Assembly: GCF_964275005.1 (NCBI RefSeq)
Contig: NC_092685.1
Location: 30,618,866 to 30,682,865 of the forward strand
DNA from: Diadema setosum
Taxonomy: Eukaryota > Echinodermata > Echinoidea > Diadematoida > Diadematidae
Direction of reading: 5' to 3'
Length of the DNA: 64,000 nt
Below are positions 9,374-48,700 of the stretch, piece after piece (position 1 is the first letter of the stretch; the number at the start of each line of letters is the position of its first letter). The notes under the pieces are model-generated. The model had not been told where the DNA came from, ran no database searches, and saw nothing but the letters and a program-made list of their open reading frames with translations. The position numbers were made by a program, and so were the translations under genes.

Positions 9374-12300
9374 CTGGGGGGGGGGGGGGGGGGGAGGGGG
9401 AAGGAGGTAACAACACAGGATTAAAACAGTTAAGCATCGTGTTTCACTGTCTTTGTTCACATGAATTCACTTTCAAGATATTCCTTTTATTGGAGATACA
9501 GAGCTGTCTAGTTAGTGCTGGAACAAGTCTAATCTTGAGCCACCAACATTACAGATAGCAGGCAATCATAATTTCACACTAAGTATTGTATGTTTTATAT
9601 GACTAAAATAATCTGTTTCCTGTAAAAAGATGATAGCCTTGATGATTCCTATCTTCCGTTTGATATTTTCAAATAAAATATTCAGATAAAATAACCCAAA
9701 GCTCTTCCTACGCATATTAATCATCTCTTAAGAGCCTAACAAGCAGGCAATACTCATGCTCTGAAGATGATAGATGTACTTCATTCTGATGGCAATGACT
9801 GTATGTAAATGACTCTACATTTTTCCATTTCTTCGTCAAGCAAGAATTCAGGGAGACAAATACTTAACATGCAGATTACAAATCTGTAGACTTTCAGCAA
9901 AGAGCATACAGGCTTCGTGTGGTTACAAACCACGGAATATTTTATTTGACATAGCTAAATTGTAAGCGACACTGACAATCAAGCTGTTAGCGCTCACCAG
10001 TGCTTTAAGCCAGGTGACAAGCGAGGGCGGTAGTCGGGACTGCCTCTCCACGCTGACGGAGTCCGCTCCAACGACTATCTCCTGAGCAAGCCTCTGACCA
10101 ACAATGTGGATCAGCTGCACTGCCATTTCAGTTTGCTCGGAAACTGACACAAGGAGCTAAAAAGGAGAGGAAAGGTCAAAGGTCAAACCACTAACTAAAC
10201 CAGATAAGGTTCACAACATGGACCGACTTTTATTGGCAAGAAATGTTCTTGTGTTCTCATTGTATCAAGTTTTGAGCATGGCCGGTAACAAAACAATTGT
10301 GCCATCATTGCAAACACTAATACTTTCAAATTATTTGCAAAACCTGGACACATATTCTTATTAGCAGATTATTACACATATGCTTAAAAATTAAAGTGAA
10401 ATATGATGATCCTTTCATCTTAAGTGTGAGGTCACCCTCCAAAGTCATCCATGAACATGTAGAAGACGCACATCAATTGCTGCTACGAAAATTAAGTACA
10501 ATGATACAAAGAAAACATGAACTGCACACATCACAGCAGTTTAAATCAAAATACGTCAGATGTGAGCACGTATTGATGTATCTGTCTTCAAATATGCCCT
10601 ATTCTGAATCATCAAACCAAGCCGTGATCCTTTAACATTAGTCCCACTCATCGGTTCCCATTTCTCCTCACCTCCTGTGCTATGGCGTCATAACCGCTGT
10701 TGTACAGCTGGCAGACATGGTGTCTCTTCACCAGGTCGCTGTCCACCCTCAATGCCAGGGCCAACTGCAGGGCCACGCCTGGCCACACCTGTCCCGGGTG
10801 GGTCTTCGGCAGCCGCTTGGGGTTCTCCAGGGGCACCGTCCCCCCGGCCGCGATCCCAGATGCATCGGACGCCGTGCTGCTTCTCCTCCGCTCGGACAAC
10901 GCTGAGGAGGAGGCGGAAGAGGCGGTGCTTCCTGGGGTGGAAACATCACCCTCCATTTCTGACTGATGGTTGGGAGGGAGGGTGAAAACAGCTGCCATCA
11001 CAAGTCGTTGCAAGAACTGTGGGAAGAAAAATGAGGGGGAAAATGGACAGGTTACAATGAAAATTGCAGACCACCTTCCTTTTGATATTTGTCACTGACT
11101 GATAATCCTTAGTACGACTATGACTGCACTGCAGCCTTTGTGATCCTTTTAATGACCCTCAGCTCATCAATTCTATATACAAACCTCATATGTGCTTTGT
11201 CTATTCACAGCAATTTCATCATCAGCCTCTTAAACAAATGCTTAAAATGTGAAACTGGTTTTTTAGCCATACAGTGTAGTTGTGTACTAGGCTCAAATCT
11301 TGCTCAGTATTTCTATATCATCTTTATAACTGCTATTGAATGTGGTTGTTCCTACAATGTAAGTCATAAGGTACATAAGACACTAACATACAAACATGCA
11401 CACACACAAACGCACACGCATAAACATACTCCCGCACTGATGGTTCCATGACATTTGCTCCTGTGACAATAGCTCCACTGAAAGATTTGCAAGCTAAGCC
11501 AAACATAAATTCTACCCGTAAACATAACCTTAACCCTAATCCTCACATCAAACTAAACCTAAAATCCTATCACAACCTTAACTCTAACCCTAAGTCCTTT
11601 GAGAAAATAAGACCAGAGCAATTATCGCAGGAGCAAATGTCGTGTCACCTGCATTAACAGATGGATGGCAAACACGGAAACCCAATGCCCCCAGCACTAT
11701 AACATAGAAGACACATATAGAATATCAAAACAAGCACGATGAAGGTGGCTCATCCATCAGCCTACAATCTCAATTCAATCTTCAATCTTTATTTCCGATT
11801 CAATATATAATATACAAAGTATATGTGAATATGAGCAAATTGTACAAAAAGTGAGTTTAAAAACAATGGAAACGACAACAAAACAAAGCGAGATTATGAT
11901 AAAGACAAAAGAAAAAAAAAAAACACATCGGGAAAACAGATATCACAGGTACATAGAGAACAGAAACTCATTAACATTATGTGTTTGGTCGACCGGAAAA
12001 TGGTATGCGCGTAGAAAGCCAGAATAGGCTTGTTATGTTGCACATACCCCGCGTTATAATCATTTGAAAATTACTTTTAAAAAAATCAAATTAATCGTAA
12101 CAAAAAAGAGAAAAACATTAAACACCATCAACATCAACATCTCAACACCACAGAGTCAAATCTTATATAAATAATATCTGCATTTCTCATGAGAAAAAAA
12201 AAAACAACAAAACAAATCAAAATCAAATGCAGAAAAAGCACAGATGACAATCCTTCCAAAATTCACAAATGACTGCTTACCTCCTGCCTCATTTTGATCA

Positions 12301-18300: not shown

Positions 18301-21300
18301 TTGGCAATGGTGTCCTGCACACACACACACAAAAAAAAAAAAAAAAACATGAACACTGCACTCATTAAAGCTCACTTCAGTTGGTCCAACATTAACAACT
18401 AATTGCATGAGAACATCCATGCTTCCAGTATTTGATGACAGCATTCGTCTATACTTTCCTCAGCAGGAAATGGCAAATTGAAATTTTTAGTTTCCTTTAA
18501 AGGGGAAGGCTAGTAACTGATCAGTGGGAATCAGTGGAAATGCTGGGAGGTGATTGTTCCAATCCTTATGGGATTCATTCAAGAGTTCATTGTATATCTA
18601 TTGTTGTGTGAAAATGATTTGCTTCAGAACGGTCTCATATTCAAGTAATGTGCAGTTTAATGCTTCCAGGTTAGCGTCCCTGGTCAGTGACGGAGCATTA
18701 ATCTGCACATTACTTGAATATGAGACCGTTCTGAAGCAAATCATTTTCACACAACACTAGATATACAATGAACTCTTGAATGAATCCCATAAGGATTGGA
18801 ACAATCATCTCTCAGCATTTCCACTGATTCCCACTGATCAGTTACTAGCTTTCCCCTTTAATGAAAAAAATACACATTGTGGATGCCTCTCGATATATGT
18901 GACCCTCTACTGTATTTATCCCCTCCGCCCTCTCAAATGCAACCTGGGGCATGACATGATATTACACCTCTGCAACAACATTAGCATCTCGGTAGCAGTG
19001 TTTCAATGCTGGCTTATCATCCTACACAGAAAGCATTATTCTCTACTTATAAACCTCTCTACAGGCTCCTGCTGTTACATTAGTTGGTGGTGTTGATGCT
19101 GTTGATGTTGCTAATATGGATGTTACTCTCATTGATAGATAGTAGTAGTGTTGTTGTTGTCATCGTCACCGCCGACATCATTGATGACAACTCGGTTACT
19201 ATGCTCATTAAAAAAAAAAAAAAAAAAAAATCAGTTGCAACATCTGACACACCTTGCTAAGTTTGGTCTGGGTCAGTCTCTTCAGCACCATCAGGTCTCG
19301 GAGCTGTTCAATCAGGATGTCCCACATGCTGACATCCACCCAATCACGGCTCAGATCTGAGCTGGGTGTGGTCACCGGGCTGGCATCCTCACTCTCATCG
19401 ACCTCCATTTGTGCTGTAGAGTCCTATGTGAAATAGATGACATCGAAAAAGAACAGAGAAAAGGTAATGCATTTTTGTCATCTGGGTACGGCACAACACA
19501 AATGTCAACGATCTATGAGCAGAATTTGAAGCTTGTGGATTTTCAATCCAATGAAAGTATTTCCTCACGTATTAACTAAATCTCTGTCACTGAAGCTATA
19601 TCTAAACTCAGCCTAGCTGCCAACTGCTTTCAGAGGCCTCACAAAATATGGCATGAGGTATCCTGCATGTAATTATCTGCCTGTATAATGCAGGCAGTAA
19701 GACTAGTGTTTAATCAAAGTATTGAGGCCACCACTCCTATAAGCCATAGCTGCTGTGTCTCAGTATTGCAATGACTAGGAGAGAACTTACAGCTGTCAGT
19801 CTTGCAGAAGTTTGCTTATGAGCAAATTAATACTTGCTTAGAGGCCACGGAAAATAAATCCAAAGTAAAACCACCACCACCACCACCCCCCCCCCCCAAA
19901 AAAAAAAAAAAAAAAAACAGAAACAACTAGAAATGTCGCTTTGGCGACTGGTATGCCTCCGCCATAATGCATGATTTTCCCAATAGGTCTAGATAGTACA
20001 TGTGGACACTGTGTGATTACATTTTCACAAAATTGGCAAAATATTGGAATGACAAGTTTGTCACAAATGTGTTGAATGTTCACCTTCCTTGATGTAGGTT
20101 TAATTGGATGAATAGGAGAGCATGTATCTAGGGATTTAAGGACTTTAACTTGACTTTGACCCATTCATACATTTAGGCATTGAGTAATTTTCAAGGTACA
20201 GGTGTGGAGAAAAAGTGCAATTTCTGAATTGAATAGTAAATTGTTACCATTTTCATCTGGCCCTTGACCCTAAAATTCATAAGATAATTACTTTCAGGTA
20301 GAACATGCATAATATGTACTAAGTTTCAAGGTAACTTTAGCCACTTCCGAGATATGGAGGAAAAAGTTAGTTCAGCACTTTCACTTGATCTTTGACCTTT
20401 TGACCTTTGAGGCAAAAAGAGAAAAAAAAACTTTCCAGAGAATTTCTATTAGGTTACACACGCATACACCAAGTGTAAAAAAATAACCCTGCTGGCATTG
20501 CATAAATATGAGGGTAATAGTAACATTTTGAAGTCTTGCACTTGACCTTTGACCCCTGACCTTTGACCCCATGAACCCTACATTCTCTAGATAATCACTT
20601 CCAGTCAGTACATGTATATACTATGTTCCATGAAGATACCTTGAACAATTTTCCAAGGTACGGAGAAAAAAAAAGAAGTTTTAATATTTTTACTTGACCT
20701 TTTGACCTTTGACCTTTGACCTCATGACCCAAACTGTCACCAGAGAATCTTAATTGGGTAATACATGTATACACTAAGTTTCAAGAAAATCTCTTCAGGC
20801 ATTCAATAGATATGGTGGAAATAGTGAAATTTTATGTATTTGACCCTGACCTTTTGACCTTTGACCTTTGACCTCATGACCCAAACTTTCACCAGAGAAT
20901 CTTAATTGGGTAAAACATGTATACACTAAGTTTCAAGAAAATATCTTCGGGCATTCAAAAGGTATGGTGGAAATAGTGAAATTTTATGTATTTGACCTTG
21001 ACCTTTTGACCTTTGACCTTGAGCATGTGCACCCAAAAGTTGATAGGCACAACTTCACCCCCTAATACACATACATGCCAAGTTTCATTAGGATACCTCA
21101 ACAGGTTTCGATAGTTACCTTGTCCACAAAATTCATTACGGACGGACGGACAACCCGAAAACATAATGCCTCCGGCACCACTTCGTGGCGGAGGCATAAA
21201 AACAGGCTGGCAAGAGCTTAGCTCAAGACTCTTTTAGAGAAATCCTTTTATTTACTCATTGTTAATATAGCTGTTCATTAAATATGTTTCTGTATAAAGA

Positions 21301-27300: not shown

Positions 27301-30300
27301 CAAGTGAGCTAATAAAAGTTGTAAGATTAGCAGTTGCCATCTCATACCCCAAGGCTTGCAATATTTAGCAGCTCATAATGGAAATAGGATTACACATTGG
27401 GGAAAGTTGACGGTAAAATCATCACATTCACACTGCAGCATATTTTGTGCACATAGTCTCAGCTCCACACAGTGTCACAGTATGTGCAGTTCATACTGAT
27501 TTTGTTTCACTCCTTTTGATTAAAAGATAACTTTCTCTTCTGGACATATTCTTAAGTATTTTACAAAGGCAAAATATCTGCTGCTCTCTTTACCTTTCCA
27601 CATCCTGACTGCCACTCCCCTGATGACATCAACCAGCGACACTCTGCCGAAGCTATCAGTGCTCACCGCTAACCTGAGACCAGGAGCCAGAACTATACTG
27701 TCTCCATGGCGACGGACATCAGGCAGACCAAACCTGCATCAGGAAGGAAAATTTCTCCTTTCAAAACAAAGTCTACTCTAACAACAGCTCAGTGATATTC
27801 ACCTTTCCAGAATCCGCAACACACAAGTCCACAAAAATCCTCATACATCAATTTCAATATCCTTAAAACATATGAATTAACTTATTACTAAGATGCCAAC
27901 ATACAGCAGTTTATTACTTTCACAGAAAATTTTCGCTGTAAACTTACGAGAGAGCTCAAAATATGCAGTGCCTTTCTTCATCCTTCAAATTTTTAAAAAC
28001 GTATGTTTACCATTCATCAACACCACTGGAACCTTGCACTGACAAGAAAGAATACAGTACTCAAATTACTAGATCCACTTTGACACTTTGATTACAGTAC
28101 GACAATACCATTTTTACCCAACTGTAAATGTCGCATCTGCACAAAGCATGTTAAAAAGAGCAATTCATATTACACAGAGTCTAGTAACATTCTGATGCTC
28201 AAAAATACTTTAAGCAAGAACTTGAAGCAGAACTGGCCTCACTGTAAGAGATCCTCATGTTTGGTGTAAAGTAAATTTGACTCTGATCAGCTGACCTGAT
28301 GGGGAGAGACATCGCTGGCTCTACCCGAGGCTTCTGCTTGGAACCCGTCTGTGTGTCGGCATTCTGCTTGCTGCCACCAAAACCAAACCATCCACTGTGA
28401 AGGAAAGATGTCATCAAAACAATGTTCATGGGATACAGCCTCTCTTGAAAACTATCAATATTCTGGCCAAAAAAAAAAAAATAAATAAATAAATAAATAA
28501 ATAAATTTCACAATGAGCAAACAAAATCTGGCTCAGGAATAATACTTGCCACATTCCAGCTAAATATAACCATGCCCACATTAGCAGAAACAAGACAAAA
28601 TAGACCTCGTTTTGTTTTGTTCTTTAATAGTTCTTTAGTGTAACGATGGCTTCAAATAATCTTCAGGCAAAGAATATTCGGTATGCATCAGGCTAATGTC
28701 ATATTTTGAACACAAAATGAACATTGGAGGATAATTAATGCATTAAACATCATTGAGGCTGAATAGAAGTGCCCCCTAAAGGCATCTATGAGATGCGCTG
28801 CTAGCATCTGAAACTTGGCATGAGGACCAAAATGGTGATGTCCTAGAGAAAATGTTCCACTTAAGTTGGCGGCTCATTGATGGTAGAACCAATCACCCAT
28901 GAATGGCCTGTAATCATTTCATGTGGGAAGATAATTTTCCTCCTAATATTCCTGAGTTTTAACAATGAAACACACTATCCACGGCATTCAGAATATCAAA
29001 TGCTAACCAGCAAATATTACAATATACAGCTGCACATGTCCATAATCACAAATTGATAGTAACATCACAGTGTACTACAGTACACCCATGTATATGTACT
29101 CTCAGGTTTGATGGAATCCCATATTCACACAGCAAAAATGATCAAAAGGAATGTACAAATAGCTGTAGTTCCTTGAGCACACAAACAAACAAGGAAAACG
29201 AAGAAAGCATGCCAGAGCAAAACCACACAAAGACAACTTTGATAGTATGAAAGTTTGGCAGTCGTGTCTCAATGAAGCACTATTATAGAACGGTTCCAGA
29301 AATCCCTGCAATCTGATTGGTTGAGAGCTGTGCGTTAATTTTTACTAGACCGACGTTCGATATCAAATAATTATTACGATCACTAATGATAGCCACTGTA
29401 AACAAGCTATCGCTCACTTTTAGGTTACCGCGCAGCTCAGTTCACCAAGCAAGATGGCTGCAGCAGCCCTGGTTAATTTTGAACTCTTGACTGACGGCGA
29501 AATAACTGCTTTACTTGATGACTTGGATGCTGCAAGTACTAAAAAATCAATCAAATTTGGATATTCTAGATTGGAGAGTTTTGCTAGGATTAAACATGTG
29601 GATTTAACTGACATTTCTGCTCGTGATTTGGACACTCTGCAGACTTCATTTTATGCATCGGTACGTAAAGAGGATGGTTCACTGTATATTAAAAAGTCCA
29701 TGCAATACATTCGGTATGGTATTCAACGTCATTTTCTTGACAATTGCAATATTGACATCTGTAACAAAACTCAATTTCCTGAGTGTTCGTATGTTTAAGG
29801 CAGTTTTAGTTAAACTGAAGCGAGAGGGACTAGGCAGTACTAAACACAAGGACCCAATTTCTCCAGCTGACTTTGAAAAGATACAATCATCAGAGTAAAC
29901 GGATTGCACCAAACCACAAGGACTACAGAACAAGGTATTCATAGATATTTTAACCTTCTTTTGTAACCGAGGAAAGGAGAATGTTTGTGATTTAAAAGCA
30001 TCTGACTTTACTGTGTGTACTGATGAGGATGGAATTCGATATGTGATGAAACGTGATCAGCTCACTAAAAATCGCAGGGAGAGTGACGATGAAGTTGGAA
30101 GTGGAGGGATCATGTTTGAAATCCCTGGAAATGACAGACATCCTGTCAAATCATTTCAGTTCTATGTTTCAAAACTAAATCCATCTTGCCAATGGTTTTG
30201 GCAGAAGCCTAAACCAACTGCACCACTGAGTGATAATGACCCATGGTACTGTAACATTCCAGTAGGGATAAACACTCTGGCCAACAAAATGAAAGTGACC

Positions 30301-33300
30301 TCAACTGCGGCCAAGTGCAGTAAGGTTTACACGAACCACTGCCTCTGGGCAACGTGTGTTACAACACTCAACAATACTGGATTTCCATCAAGAGACATAA
30401 TGTCTGTCAGTGGACATCAAAATGAGAGTTCGCTCAAGATCTAGTCTAAAACTAGCAATGAAAGAAAGAAGGAGATGTCTAGTAAGATCGCAAGCAAGAT
30501 TCACTTGGGTAAGGCGAGCTCTTGTCCATCTACATCTACAACAGCGCAAGTGGATAATGCAGTTGATGTTGATGTTCGGAACCAGCAAGTGGCTCTTCAG
30601 ACTGCACCAACATCACCATCTCGCAGTCAAGCACCATTAACAGCAGTGCAACAATCTGTACAGCCTGCTCAATGCCAACTCTCCGTTTCACTGTCATCAG
30701 AGAGCAACACTATGTGTACTACCAGTCATACCTTCAATTTCAACAACTGCGTAGTACACATCCATAACAACTAGTCATGTTGCTATGGACTTGTAAATGC
30801 GTTACTCCTGTTCACAATTCATTGTTATTTATTAGAAAGTTTATCGCATCAACTGTTTGATGTGTCTATGTACATAAACATGTACATGCATTCTTGAACT
30901 TGGGAGTTGGACTCAAACTTCCATACTTACAACACTAGTACAATGCAAGCAAGATTAGAAGGCCTTCATTTCAGAAATGGTAAGTTTTAGTATTTCATTT
31001 TATAAAAATTGAAATAAAATGACAGAATATGTGTTAAATCATGCGTTCAGTAATTACCGATGCATGGCTAGCCATGCATCCAGTCTTTTGCCATGCGTCG
31101 GTAATTACCGGACGCATGGTTGAAAAAATTGATTTTTGGCCAAAATTTGTCCACCGTTCTATAAAACAGATGATGCACATGTCTTTTCGTGTGTCGGTAG
31201 GACTAGTGCGCATGCGGTGACTATGGAAACTAGTCCAAACCCACTCGGCTGCGCCTCGTGGGTCAAACAGTTCCATAGTTACCTTATGCATACAATTCCT
31301 ACCGACACACTCAGACCTGTGCATCATTTGTATACTGGTATCCCATAGTTAGAACTCTTCATAAGACATTCAACTGACCTTGCTGCTGAGAATATTGCCG
31401 ACTTCAGCTTGCTGGCTACAGCCATGGCCACGTCAGAGAAGAGAGGTTGGGCACTTCCCTGATTACAGACATCAGCAAATGAATGTGAGAAGTTATAACT
31501 CAATGCAAGGAGATTCTAGAGAGCTCTTAGGGAGATATTTGTGTGTTGCATGCATCTCAATTGCCAAAGATGATTCTCAAATGGGGTGAGGGTGTATATC
31601 CTTGTCAGGACATCCAATGTTTCATGCAGCCATGTGTGTAATTAGGAACACTTGGCAGCTCTGATATTACCCAAAATGTAATGTTATGTCTATGTCCACT
31701 TGACTTTCACTTTGATACGAAATTAAAACACGATTACCTGACTTCATGATATTTTGCAAAGACATCAGTCATGCAAGCTGAACTATTATATTCCAAATCA
31801 CATTCAAGTAGATATTCTACACAAATATGTCCTGCATCTGTATAAGAAAATCACAGTTTTCATTAAGAAATTAAACATTTCTGGAGTCATTAGTATCTAA
31901 TGAACTGTCAAAAATGCCAAACAAGTAAAAGAAAACAAAACAGCACTATATTTACATTACTACTGAATTACTCACAAATGACTAAATGTTGCTAAGCACC
32001 TGTACATCAAAACAACTAAATTGCATAGGGCAGCATATCAGCACATTTACAAGTTGCTCATTATGTTGTGGGAAAACACAAAAGATGACAAGATCTCTGA
32101 TCCTAGGAGAGTCTTTCACTTTTTGGCTACCCCACAGACAAAGACACTTTTGATAGTCTCAGGTCGGTTCAGATCTCACCTCCAGGGCGTAGAAGAATCC
32201 CAGGAATGGTCCTGCCCCAGCGGTGACGTACTTGTGACAGACAGGGGGCGTGGTCCTGACCGAGGCATTGTAGCCACCCAGGGCGGATGCCGCATGGAGC
32301 TGGTCAAACGAGCAGCTGGACACCACACCTACAGGATAAAACCACATAAATTTACCTTTAAGGTTTGGGGTTTTTTTTAACCCTTGTAATAATCACTACA
32401 GAGGTAGCCTCTATCAAGTACTGTATACATCATATATTTTGTAGTATTTTTTGTTTTGTTTTATTCTGTTTTGTTTTTACAAATTTCATGGGTGCACAGA
32501 TATTCACAATCTTTATTTTTCAATAAGTGCCACATTACTGCCTCCCAAAACACACATGCAGTGCAACTTGTTTGCGGGAAATCACTAACATTCCTTCTCT
32601 AAAAGGACAACCCCATTTTCTTATTCTATCGCTGTGGTCTGCAATCATGAAATTAACCACTAGCAAAGACTGTCTTATAGGTCCCAAGTCATTGTATAGG
32701 AGGCAGACACAGTGTACCTAGATAAAGGCTTCTTTCATACTCTCTGCTAACATGTTTGAGATTGACTCATTTCCTTCAGCAGACACTCTGTATTCATGTA
32801 ATGCACTGGGCAAAATAATCTGCTCTTCAGATTGAGAAACTTCATGCAAATGTCAACACAATACAAAGTTAATTTTTTTTCTCTCTTGTACTGGGTTAAA
32901 AAAAAAAAAAAAAATGTCATCATAAGTAGATTTCAAGATGTTAGGTCCAAATCATTAAAATTTCCCATTGCACTAATTAAATACACACTATCAGTATTTC
33001 AGTGGCAACTGACATTCATATATTTACCACCTTGGAATATCTTCTTTGGCGAGATCATTTCTCGTTGTATTACTAACTTGCACAGCAATGGAGCCAAAAC
33101 CAAAAACAAAGAGTTGTGAAGCTTCACTCTGATTTTGCCAACCACAGACAGGCTGAGGGAAATTTACCTGTGCTGACGTGATCTACAATAGCATCTTGCT
33201 GCTGCAGGCCCCACTTTTTGTAGGCAAGGGGTGGCGGCTGGATGTTGTCCTGGCTACCACTGGCTGCAGCTGTCAGGGAAAGAGTACATGATACAACAGG

Positions 33301-45700: not shown

Positions 45701-48700
45701 TGACTTTTTTCTTTCGAGTTTCCCGCACATTTTGACACCAAATTTGTGACGCCCGGGGGTACGGTTCTGAAGTTACATAACTTTTTGTACATGCACGTGA
45801 GACCGAAAATGGCTCAAAAATGTGATTTTGTGTACAAAGTCAATACAAATTGAGTTTTATCACATGGTTCATATAAATATGCTTATTTTTACTCTCAATG
45901 GCTAAAATCAATTTGTTTTAGCAGTATTATGCTTCAAAAAGGGTCTGCCACAAATTTTGCTGAAAAAAACAACAAAAACAAAAGGTCGTAAAAACAAAGA
46001 AATACATAAGAAATTCATAAAACAATAAAATAAATAAGAAATTAATTTTGATACCGAATTTTTTTTCAAGTGCATTTGCTTAGAATGCCACAAAGAATAT
46101 CTAGACCAAAAATGAACACTTTTGGAGCTTTATTTACTGATTTAGATCAAAAAGTCTGATTTCTTGCATAAATTAGCATGATTAATCAAAATAAAATAAA
46201 AGAAGACTATTTTGGAAAATTTAAATATACGATCTTGTAGATTACATCGCACACTACCATTGTGCAAATTTCCGCGGTGATCGCGCGATCCACGGCCGAG
46301 ATCTTAAGGGGGGGCCCTTTAGGCCCCCCCCCAGTCTTTCGAGCTACCAAAATAGCCCAGTCTTTTTAGGGTTAAATGTCTGTTATGTACACAACAAACT
46401 CATTTGTCAGGGAAACATCTATCGGTATATCATTTTTATATGCCATACCGATAACTGGTAGATTATGATTATGTGATCACATCCATTTTGTAAGGTATCA
46501 TCTGCTCTTTGCATAGCAAGCTGAACGTTGCTCTAATCAGAAGCCTTTATATTGAAGCTCTTGTGTATTCCAAAAGCGTAGCACTACATCTACAGGTTTG
46601 AATTATATGTTATTGCAAATATTGCTTTTCTTACATCATCAGTAGGATGAGTGAATACCAAAGTAATTTTTGCCCTGCGTATTTAGTCAACGACTGAACA
46701 AGAAACAAATAAAGCGTCAACATAAAACTTAAGCTCACATGATATTCCCTGCCAGCAACCCTTTGCTGCTAAGCTGATGAGACTGATATTTAGGTTTGCT
46801 TCATCTTATCTTGCAGGCAATTTTGTTTGTGTTTTCAGATGAACAAAGTGCATTGTAGTTCAAGTACAGTGCACTCCTGTTATAGCAAAACTCTTGCTAC
46901 AACTAAGTAAAAATTCAGGCCCCAAAATCATTGTCTATGTATCTCGGCTATAACAAAATTTCGAAATGACAAAGGAAAACTGCTAGTTCCAAGGACTTTG
47001 TTATAACAAGAGTCACCTGTAATAGATTTACAGACACTGTTAATGCCAAACACTGAACTTTTGTTGCCCTATGCAAGAGTGTTTGTTGGTCGATAGCAAT
47101 GGGCAATGCATTGTCAGATCCTCTTTCCATCATTTCTAATGCTGACTAGACAATCAACTGCTTGTAATTCAAAGGCAATTTAAAAGCTGGTGTTGACTAT
47201 TGTGTATGATTCTTTTTTTGAATGGGATGTTAATTGTGTCTATTTCACATCCCATGAAAGAGAGTGTCTTGTCTATTCAAGATTCAAGTCAGATTTAATT
47301 CTGAAATGTTACATAAGTCAAGCAAGCACTTAATGGTCTGAAGTATTTCAAAAATAATGGATGCATGTAGCTCTTTAATTATACAGCATTTTTGTCCATT
47401 GCTATTCATCCACTTCCAGAGAGAGCCCATCAAAAGAACCAATTACTGTAAATGTCACTATTTCCACGCAAGTAAATTTTTACGCTGAGCAGCTCAAAAA
47501 TGTATTCTTGAATTCATGCTGTGCAATTGCCGACCAATTCAAAATGTGCAGAGAAAACTGTTAAGATATTTCTTTAAGGGTTTAACTTTTAGAATTTGCA
47601 CTAATCAAGGTAGCACGAAATGCGTGAAAATTACTGTACTGCAAAAATTTCCATGTCTACAGTAATTGCCCTGAAACACAGTGTCTTCAGTTGGGGGAAG
47701 TTTTGATTGCAAATACATCTCGCATTACGTCCATTGAAGAATGTGCAGCGCACCACTGCCTTATGATGATTCAGGGCACTCCCGTTTTAACGAACAGGGT
47801 TATAACAAAATTCCATTTACAACGAAGTAAAAAATTCAGGCCGCAACATTACCCGCTCTTTGTTTGTTATTGTTTATTTGTTCGGTTATAACGAAATTTT
47901 GATATAACGAAAGAAAACTGCTGGTCCCGAAGGACTTCGTTATAACGGGAGTCCACTGTATTTCTGTTCTGTCCACTTTCCCTCAAACCCAGGATCAGTT
48001 ATGGCACTGCCTTGAGAAGCGGCTCCCCCTTCTGCTGTCCAGGGGCATGGTTAAGTTGGCAGTGGTGGATTCTCTCGCCGCCATATTCAGGAGCGAGTTT
48101 GAGCTGCGAGACACGGTGAAGCGGGCGCGAGAACTGCAGCGTGTCGGTGCCCATCTCCACAGGCTGAGTTGCCAATTTAATGCTGCCATCGTGTGCGTGA
48201 ACCAGGCAAGGCTCTACATATCACTTACTGCTGCAATACGTCTTGTTCATTGTAGCCAATCACCTGGATTCACAAATCCTATGAAAATGTTAATGGTGGT
48301 ATTGTAAATTATTTTTTTTTTTTAATGGTAAACTTTAAAGGCACATAAAACAAAGAAAAACATTGTTCATAAATGTAGATATTTCTAATATTTTTTATTT
48401 TTTTGCAATCTTTCAGTTTTTTTTTTATTTTGATACATTTCTAATGCATACTTGCCAACTAATAAGATTCTATCAGATTCAGTAAGATTTTTTGCATTAA
48501 AAATAGCAAAATAAGATTTTCTGTCAGAGAAATCAGATTTTAAAGAAATATTTAGATATACCTTTCATGTGTATTTTCTGAAGATTTGACTGAAAGTAAG
48601 ATTTTTAACTCCAGTTTGCATATAAAATAAGATTTTTGCAATCCACAAGTAAGATATTTCATCTTGAAGTGTTGGCAGGTATGCTAATGTTTCATGCCAA

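Follow-up and report, generated by a model that had tools for sequence, protein, structure and literature searches.

DR1-type words in the satellite-like core of a Helentron-related transposon family of Diadema setosum

Our analysis of 64,000 nucleotides of the Diadema setosum genome (contig NC_092685.1; the whole stretch is called the window) assigned a discrete element of about 1.28 kb within an intron of RAB3GAP2 to a family (family A) of HINEs, i.e. non-autonomous Helentrons. The family is non-coding and present in many copies, of which this one is young, and most units of the element's core hold one or more copies of the DR1 word TGACCTTTGACC. The DR1 consensus consists of two AGGTCA half-sites with a 1-bp spacer and is bound by receptors of the HNF4, COUP-TF and RXR class, and seven words in the HINE fit this consensus, including the spacer, exactly. 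HINEs with satellite-like cores are already known; the question addressed here is why such cores keep particular words. Within one genome we found a contrast between neutral decay of the word after insertion and its apparently better retention between relatives of the family, and the word turns up again in a second HINE whose ends are unrelated. The likeliest reading, which we consider fairly probable, is that this is a HINE of the ordinary kind and that its DR1 core is kept up within the transposon lineage.

The initial annotation had described the element as intronic and bounded it at 19925 and 21200. RAB3GAP2 coding stretches indeed lie on either side on the minus strand (about 26338-26123 and 17047-16928), and the comparison of copies moves the ends by a few bases only, to 19926 and about 21202. 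Transposon sense is the minus strand, on which the order is 5′ subterminal inverted repeat (subTIR), inverted repeat (IR), GTCY-type microsatellite, central monomers, 3′ subTIR and palindrome. In window coordinates the features are:

19926 to about 21202, minus strand: whole HINE (non-autonomous Helentron), from ends common to 20 of 20 copies with differing flanks, boundary bases (n = 95) and empty sites
about 21198-21202, minus strand: 5′ end of the HINE, in an A/T run, from copy comparison
21186-21198, minus strand: 5′ subTIR, TATGCCTCCGCCA on the minus strand, 13/13 complementary to 19952-19964
21166-21178, minus strand: IR pairing with the 5′ subTIR into a terminal hairpin (92% match; fold)
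21138-21151, minus strand: microsatellite (ACGG)n, which is (GTCC)n on the transposon strand, from sequence and copy comparison
20322-21137, minus strand: central satellite-like array of five full units of 150-153 bp and a partial sixth, from TRF, direct repeats and self-match
20386-20397, plus strand: degenerate DR1 word of unit 1, one mismatch
20543-20568, plus strand: two DR1 words of unit 2 (starts 20543 and 20557), exact match to TGACCTTTGACC
20703-20721, plus strand: two overlapping DR1 words of unit 3 (starts 20703 and 20710), exact match
20855-20873, plus strand: two overlapping DR1 words of unit 4 (starts 20855 and 20862), exact match
21007-21018, plus strand: DR1 word of unit 5, exact match
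19952-19964, minus strand: 3′ subTIR, 13/13 match with 21186-21198
19935-19948, minus strand: 3′ palindrome GTCGC-CAAA-GCGAC, then ATTTCTAG(T), from sequence and as a stem in the fold of 19926-19970 (minus strand)
19926, minus strand: 3′ end of the HINE, from copy comparison

Folding of 21160-21202 on the minus strand gave the terminal hairpin at -12.1 kcal/mol (z -5.49). The (GTCC)n microsatellite varies in length among 20 copies and is frequently longer than in the window copy. Within 19926-21202, all stop-to-stop frames fall short of 110 aa.

The period of about 152 bp that had been proposed was recovered by three approaches. Lag 152 tops the self-match of 19950-21200 (0.430 vs. a mean of 0.268, sd 0.020, for lags 20-499), with further peaks at lags 304-305 and 456-457; TRF reports a period of 152 at 20693-21020 and 20695-21087; and the main direct-repeat families of the array are spaced at 150-153. 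Anchor words are present at all six places from which six units had been counted, those at 20471 and 20623 in degenerate form, and because two more decayed, half-recognisable units extend leftward to about 20038, the array is one of about 7-8 units and not of six. The DR1 words that had been reported are likewise in place; in all, the HINE contains seven exact words and one with one mismatch. With up to one mismatch allowed, 9 matches occur in the window vs. 0.30 expected from shuffles. A lone exact word at 10174-10185 on the minus strand is located outside the HINE and outside any array; by eye, its surroundings resemble the pyrimidine tract that immediately precedes a 3′ splice site of RAB3GAP2.

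The element is almost certainly a HINE. It combines subTIRs of about 11-15 bp, an IR with a 5′ microsatellite, a 3′ palindrome, insertion at TT without target-site duplication (TSD), absence of coding capacity and central repeats. Canonical Helitrons have the termini 5′-TC ... CTRR-3′; the element has a 3′ end CTAG(T) but its 5′ end is T(n)ATGCC and not TC, and we rejected this assignment. A TIR-type MITE was likewise rejected, since on the 3′ side the inverted repeat stops short of the terminus and the empty sites of four copies show no TSD. The same anatomy, TT insertion and lack of TSD characterize Cg_HINE of Crassostrea gigas, likened here by description and not by sequence: the excerpts of PMC7492417 describe a left flank of subTIR, IR and microsatellite (GTCY types in several), central satellite-like monomers mostly of 140-180 bp with two conserved monomer segments common to some elements, a right flank of subTIR and palindrome, and thousands of dispersed arrays inserted at TT without TSD. 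Unlike for the DR1-bearing family A, no nuclear receptor word is mentioned for Cg_HINE in the excerpted Results (PMC7492417). DINE-1 and HINE-Mo, as excerpted in PMC4067079, resemble family A in their 12-15 bp subTIRs, 3′ stem-loop, TT or T-rich insertion, microsatellite and optional tandem repeats, DINE-1 also in an IR near the 5′ end, and differ in that the excerpts describe no DR1 array. Pearl (bivalves) and Tsp (sea urchin) are cited there among invertebrate DINE-1-like elements (PMC4067079) and can be likened to family A by description only, not by sequence; an excerpt of PMC11136912 also refers to oyster elements of the pearl type that have central repeats. In the open-licence PMC literature, which does not include Repbase, no paper among the matches listed joined TGACCTTTGACC with transposons, and a search of the same literature for nuclear receptors with Helitrons, repeats or invertebrates gave no such element among the matches listed. 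The terminal hairpin had no match in viral or genomic contig collections, and the unit pattern with the spacing of the element had none in the viral contig collection.

A Helentron is probably the mover of the HINE. The genome (G000) contains 49 matches to PF14214, the Helitron-like Rep domain. Around one of the 49, in 20 kb minus a 2-kb middle piece, the terminal words of family A were absent; the open frame at this locus measures 3,401 aa. It was also observed that 21 of the 49 are each contained in one open frame, 3,276-3,517 aa long, and these loci are apparently intact giant autonomous elements.

The initial annotation had taken the element for a transposable repeat that carries evenly spaced DR1-type sites, and this was borne out by thousands of copies in the genome (912.7 Mb in 102 contigs; all genome-wide pattern counts given here are lower bounds). 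The own-genome search returned at least 57 matches among the best 40 of 2,895 first-look candidates scored. The 34-mer of the left end, with up to three mismatches, occurs at least 3,660 times (1,824 + 1,836 on the two strands; reversed control 0), and a 22-base word of the family A body at least 5,569 times at up to three mismatches (control 6). Both ends were common to the first 20 loci and the flanks were unrelated; the base before ACTAG is A in 18 of these copies and G in two, and the right subTIR word is intact in 18 and variant in two. On the plus strand, the flanking base is A at the left end of 90 of 95 copies and after the right subTIR in 92 of 95. Empty sites were found for four copies (L042, L068, L080 and L092), one of them with two comparison sites, and the joined flanks align without TSD, apart from differences in A-runs. 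The HINE inserts at A/A (T/T) without target duplication, the empty sites being paralogous. The empty site of L068 is an uninterrupted repeat within the window at 47785-47928, in the region of a Rad51-family gene (Pfam Rad51) which we take to be XRCC3-like, and L080 is inserted within the array of a related element. Divergence from the majority string is 0.4-3.6% in 95 of 96 copies; the remaining one (L067, at 8.6%) is misaligned.

The copies differ in the size of their arrays. In 56 copies from contig C1, lengths range from 1,118 to 1,858 bases, interrupted copies included, and each copy carries 3 to 9 exact DR1 words (mean 6.0). Among 155 gaps between successive exact anchors in these copies, 85 measure exactly 152 and ten 144-145, and many of the others span several units with degenerate anchors. 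Four of the best 40 copies are 1,430-1,621 long with repeated unit matches. Two further arrangements were noticed. L020 has two copies that point the same way, one at 7-1337 and the other at 1501-2801, with only about 160 bp between them, and at L041 (1607-3801; G000:C1, about 4.749-4.751 Mb) 499-bp pieces of the HINE 3′ end follow head to tail at an exact spacing of 499 bp. This run is compatible with rolling-circle copying or unequal exchange and is possibly a nascent satellite or a rolling-circle concatemer.

Within single insertions the DR1 word fades at the neutral rate, and no host constraint is visible. A copy was available for the decay test at 95 of 100 loci, after L041, L051, L053 and L074 (rearranged or interrupted) and L067 (misaligned) had been dropped; for L090, where the right end was not found, a fixed length was used. 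Sixty C1 loci were drawn from 100 listed places, all with an exact 34-mer left end, and terminal substitution rates are therefore not evidence in this test because the left ends are conserved by the choice of sample. The initial annotation had named as a test whether copies keep DR1 more than the rest of the unit, with equally fast decay as the refuting outcome. In the 95 copies, private substitutions amount to 30 in 7,215 base-copies of the DR1 13-mers (4.16/kb) and to 268 in 58,592 for the rest of the units (4.57/kb), which is the refuting outcome for single insertions and led us to reject an enhancer under host constraint, for which slower decay of the motif within insertions is expected. 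The 30 substitutions compare with a context-matched expectation of 33.6 (ratio 0.89, rotation 0.32), the corresponding ratio for the TGACC half-sites is 0.84 (54 vs. 64.6), and in the first 36 copies the private rates were 4.51 (DR1) vs. 4.50 (rest) per kb. DR1 12-mers are kept at a mean of.920 vs..858 for 636 other unit 12-mers, 31% of which do equally well or better. Two tests favour DR1 protection and are only suggestive: with all substitutions counted, shared variants included, the rates are 7.2 (DR1) vs. 14.9 per kb (rotation 0.058), and among five units of the window copy an average of 4.37 of 5 are identical in the DR block vs. 3.70 outside, with 9 of 157 rotations as good.

Between diverged relatives of family A, the alignments suggest that DR1 words mostly outlast their neighbours, namely in five of six arrays; the sample is partly selected, in that DR1 hits had led to four of the six. 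Identities of TGACC/DR1 columns and of the columns outside in the six long alignments are.920/.783,.907/.721,.972/.786,.923/.824,.949/.824 and.833/.808, with rotation p of.009,.022,.000,.005,.042 and.371, respectively. The last two belong to the arrays not chosen by DR1, i.e. the host array of L080 (p.042) and the tail of L098 (p.371). In two short alignments of relatives p was.233 and.200, and another two contained too few columns of DR1. Across relatives, identity is.85-.98 for the seven DR1 words, where 687 12-mers have a mean of.757 (sd.132); other boxes of the unit, e.g. CCATGAAGATAC, are likewise well kept, and repeated heptads can flatter such alignments. The loci L103-L110 were chosen by DR1 hits, so that the DR1 words in them say nothing about recurrence; the checks not selected by DR1 are the two arrays just named and a word count in masked bases.

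This count covered 207,477 bases that were not chosen by DR1 and in which family A was masked. Among 655 unit 12-mers TGACCTTTGACC ranks first, with 23 occurrences at seven loci (six at L007, one at L008, four at L010, two at L011, one at L012, eight at L074 and one in the window); a poly-A-type 12-mer reaches 21. Of these 23 words, 14 sit in the two loci with a second HINE family, family B (L007 and L074). L074 is a family A copy interrupted by a complete family B element of 1,276 bases with an 11-bp subTIR TGTCCCCGCCG and a GTCC microsatellite; inspection by eye adds a 3′ palindrome and a TT insertion site. This one full copy contains 8 exact DR1 words, for the most part at a spacing of about 158 bp. 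The 3′ end of family B occurs at least 2,255 times genome-wide (1,134 + 1,121; control 0). Ends and units of family B are unrelated to those of family A: besides the microsatellites, the unit arrays of the two align only across the DR1 block, which is oriented oppositely relative to transposon sense. In two further arrays, C (L107, L110) and D (L010), the DR1 word is again nearly all that is shared. Outside this genome, TGACCTTTGACC may also occur beside AAGTTTCA in mollusc repeats. Genome-wide, TGACCTTTGACC was found at least 66,903 times (33,795 + 33,108), the reversed word 389 times (203 + 186), and half-sites 3 bp apart at least 997 times vs. 406 for the control, in a pattern that allows 64 spacers. 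We estimate that family A supplies about 22,000 of the DR1 words (3,660 ends × 6.0). In the masked flanks, TGACC pairs occur 25 times at spacing 1, 15 at 7, five at 4, three at 5, two at 0 and never at 2, 3, 6 or 8; in family A they occur eight times at spacing 1, six each at 2 and 8, and twice at 0. Exact 7-bp runs reach four heptads in family A, and no run in B, C or D is longer than a pair.

Going by the established biology of the family, an autonomous Helentron would supply Rep and helicase and would nick and copy the HINE by rolling circle, and array length would change by whole units. DR1 might be a maintained array core in the active transposon lineage that is free to decay once a copy has landed, and it might be the site for a DNA-binding protein helping the transposon, be it an NR2-type receptor of the host or the Rep of the element itself. 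The word looks kept in the lineage because it outlasts its neighbours in relatives and recurs in an unrelated HINE family. Taken by itself, such lineage-level maintenance appears to us evenly poised, and receptor binding as the reason for it is doubtful. Use by a protein helping the transposon is the likeliest, rather than a host enhancer kept at the RAB3GAP2 locus, and sequence analysis alone found nothing at the intron copy that points to a regulatory role. We put forward only tentatively that a host nuclear receptor-type DR1 is a selected working part of HINEs here, kept in most units of otherwise unrelated satellite cores by two or more families of independent structure, perhaps by several others too, which would so have seeded tens of thousands of consensus sites across the genome. 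If true, the 66,903 exact words would form a reservoir of sites for the rewiring of receptor networks. With the contrast between decay and retention, two questions become open to test: does a transposon enlist a host receptor in order to spread, and are transposons the source of most potential DR1 sites of an animal genome?

A HINE in which DR1 has no role, the word having been present in several ancestral monomers and spread along with them, is possible though somewhat short of probable. It agrees with the neutral private decay, and the excess in the genome might reflect copy number alone, as families A (3,660 ends, mean of 6.0 words) and B (2,255 ends, 8 words in one full copy) could by our estimate give more than half of the 66,903. 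Neither the retention in diverged relatives nor the sharing of nothing but the DR1 block between otherwise unalignable units is expected from it. The word might instead have a mutational origin, with 7-bp slippage of TTTGACC making and renewing the DR1 spacing automatically. The runs of 3-4 heptads in family A and the ten anchor spacings of 144-145 beside the 85 of 152, about one heptad apart, would fit such slippage; however, a seed would be required in each unrelated family, and since exact 7-bp runs are only pairs, or a single TGACC, in B, C and D, simple slippage is hardly the whole story, and we regard it as unlikely. In rolling-circle replicons, iterons are direct repeats bound by Rep, and a short word directly repeated inside two HINE families could similarly serve as heptad repeats for a Helentron Rep. 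The unrelated termini of A and B, which probably mean different partners, and the opposite orientation of DR1 relative to transposon sense in the two speak against this, and we judge it quite improbable.

The initial annotation had offered two roles for the array, a mobile enhancer and a nucleosome-phasing cassette. For the former, in which copies would be nuclear receptor-responsive elements for nearby host genes, the presence of 3 to 9 perfect consensus words per copy is suggestive. The better retention of the words in five of the six arrays of relatives, a partly selected sample, and their recurrence in family B look like upkeep in the transposon lineage. There is also a precedent in the ISX Helitron of Drosophila, which spreads dosage-compensation binding sites and in this resembles family A with its putative protein-binding words; binding and selection are reported for ISX in the excerpts of PMC4384637, whereas in family A private decay is neutral and binding only a candidate property. 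Preservation by the host did not hold up, with no post-insertion constraint in 95 copies, and wholesale host use is unlikely given thousands of copies. We consider the mobile enhancer very unlikely, although a few co-opted copies may act for host genes. The phasing cassette is scarcely credible. Units of about 144-158 bp do come close to the length of a nucleosome core, but their length is fixed neither within nor between families (144-145 and 152 among copies of family A, about 158 in family B), and in a repeat of 152 bp there would be hardly any room for a nucleosome linker. Consensus monomers of oyster HINEs likewise span 138-181 bp in Table 1 of PMC7492417.

Two other features of the window were noticed. 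Open reading frames at 29424-30444 lie within the RAB3GAP2 gene, one with a match to DUF3504 (29899-30444); they are presumably remnants resembling tyrosine recombinases of the Crypton type. On the minus strand, 12686-12758 matches a tRNA above the Rfam gathering score and could be a tRNA or a tRNA-derived SINE.
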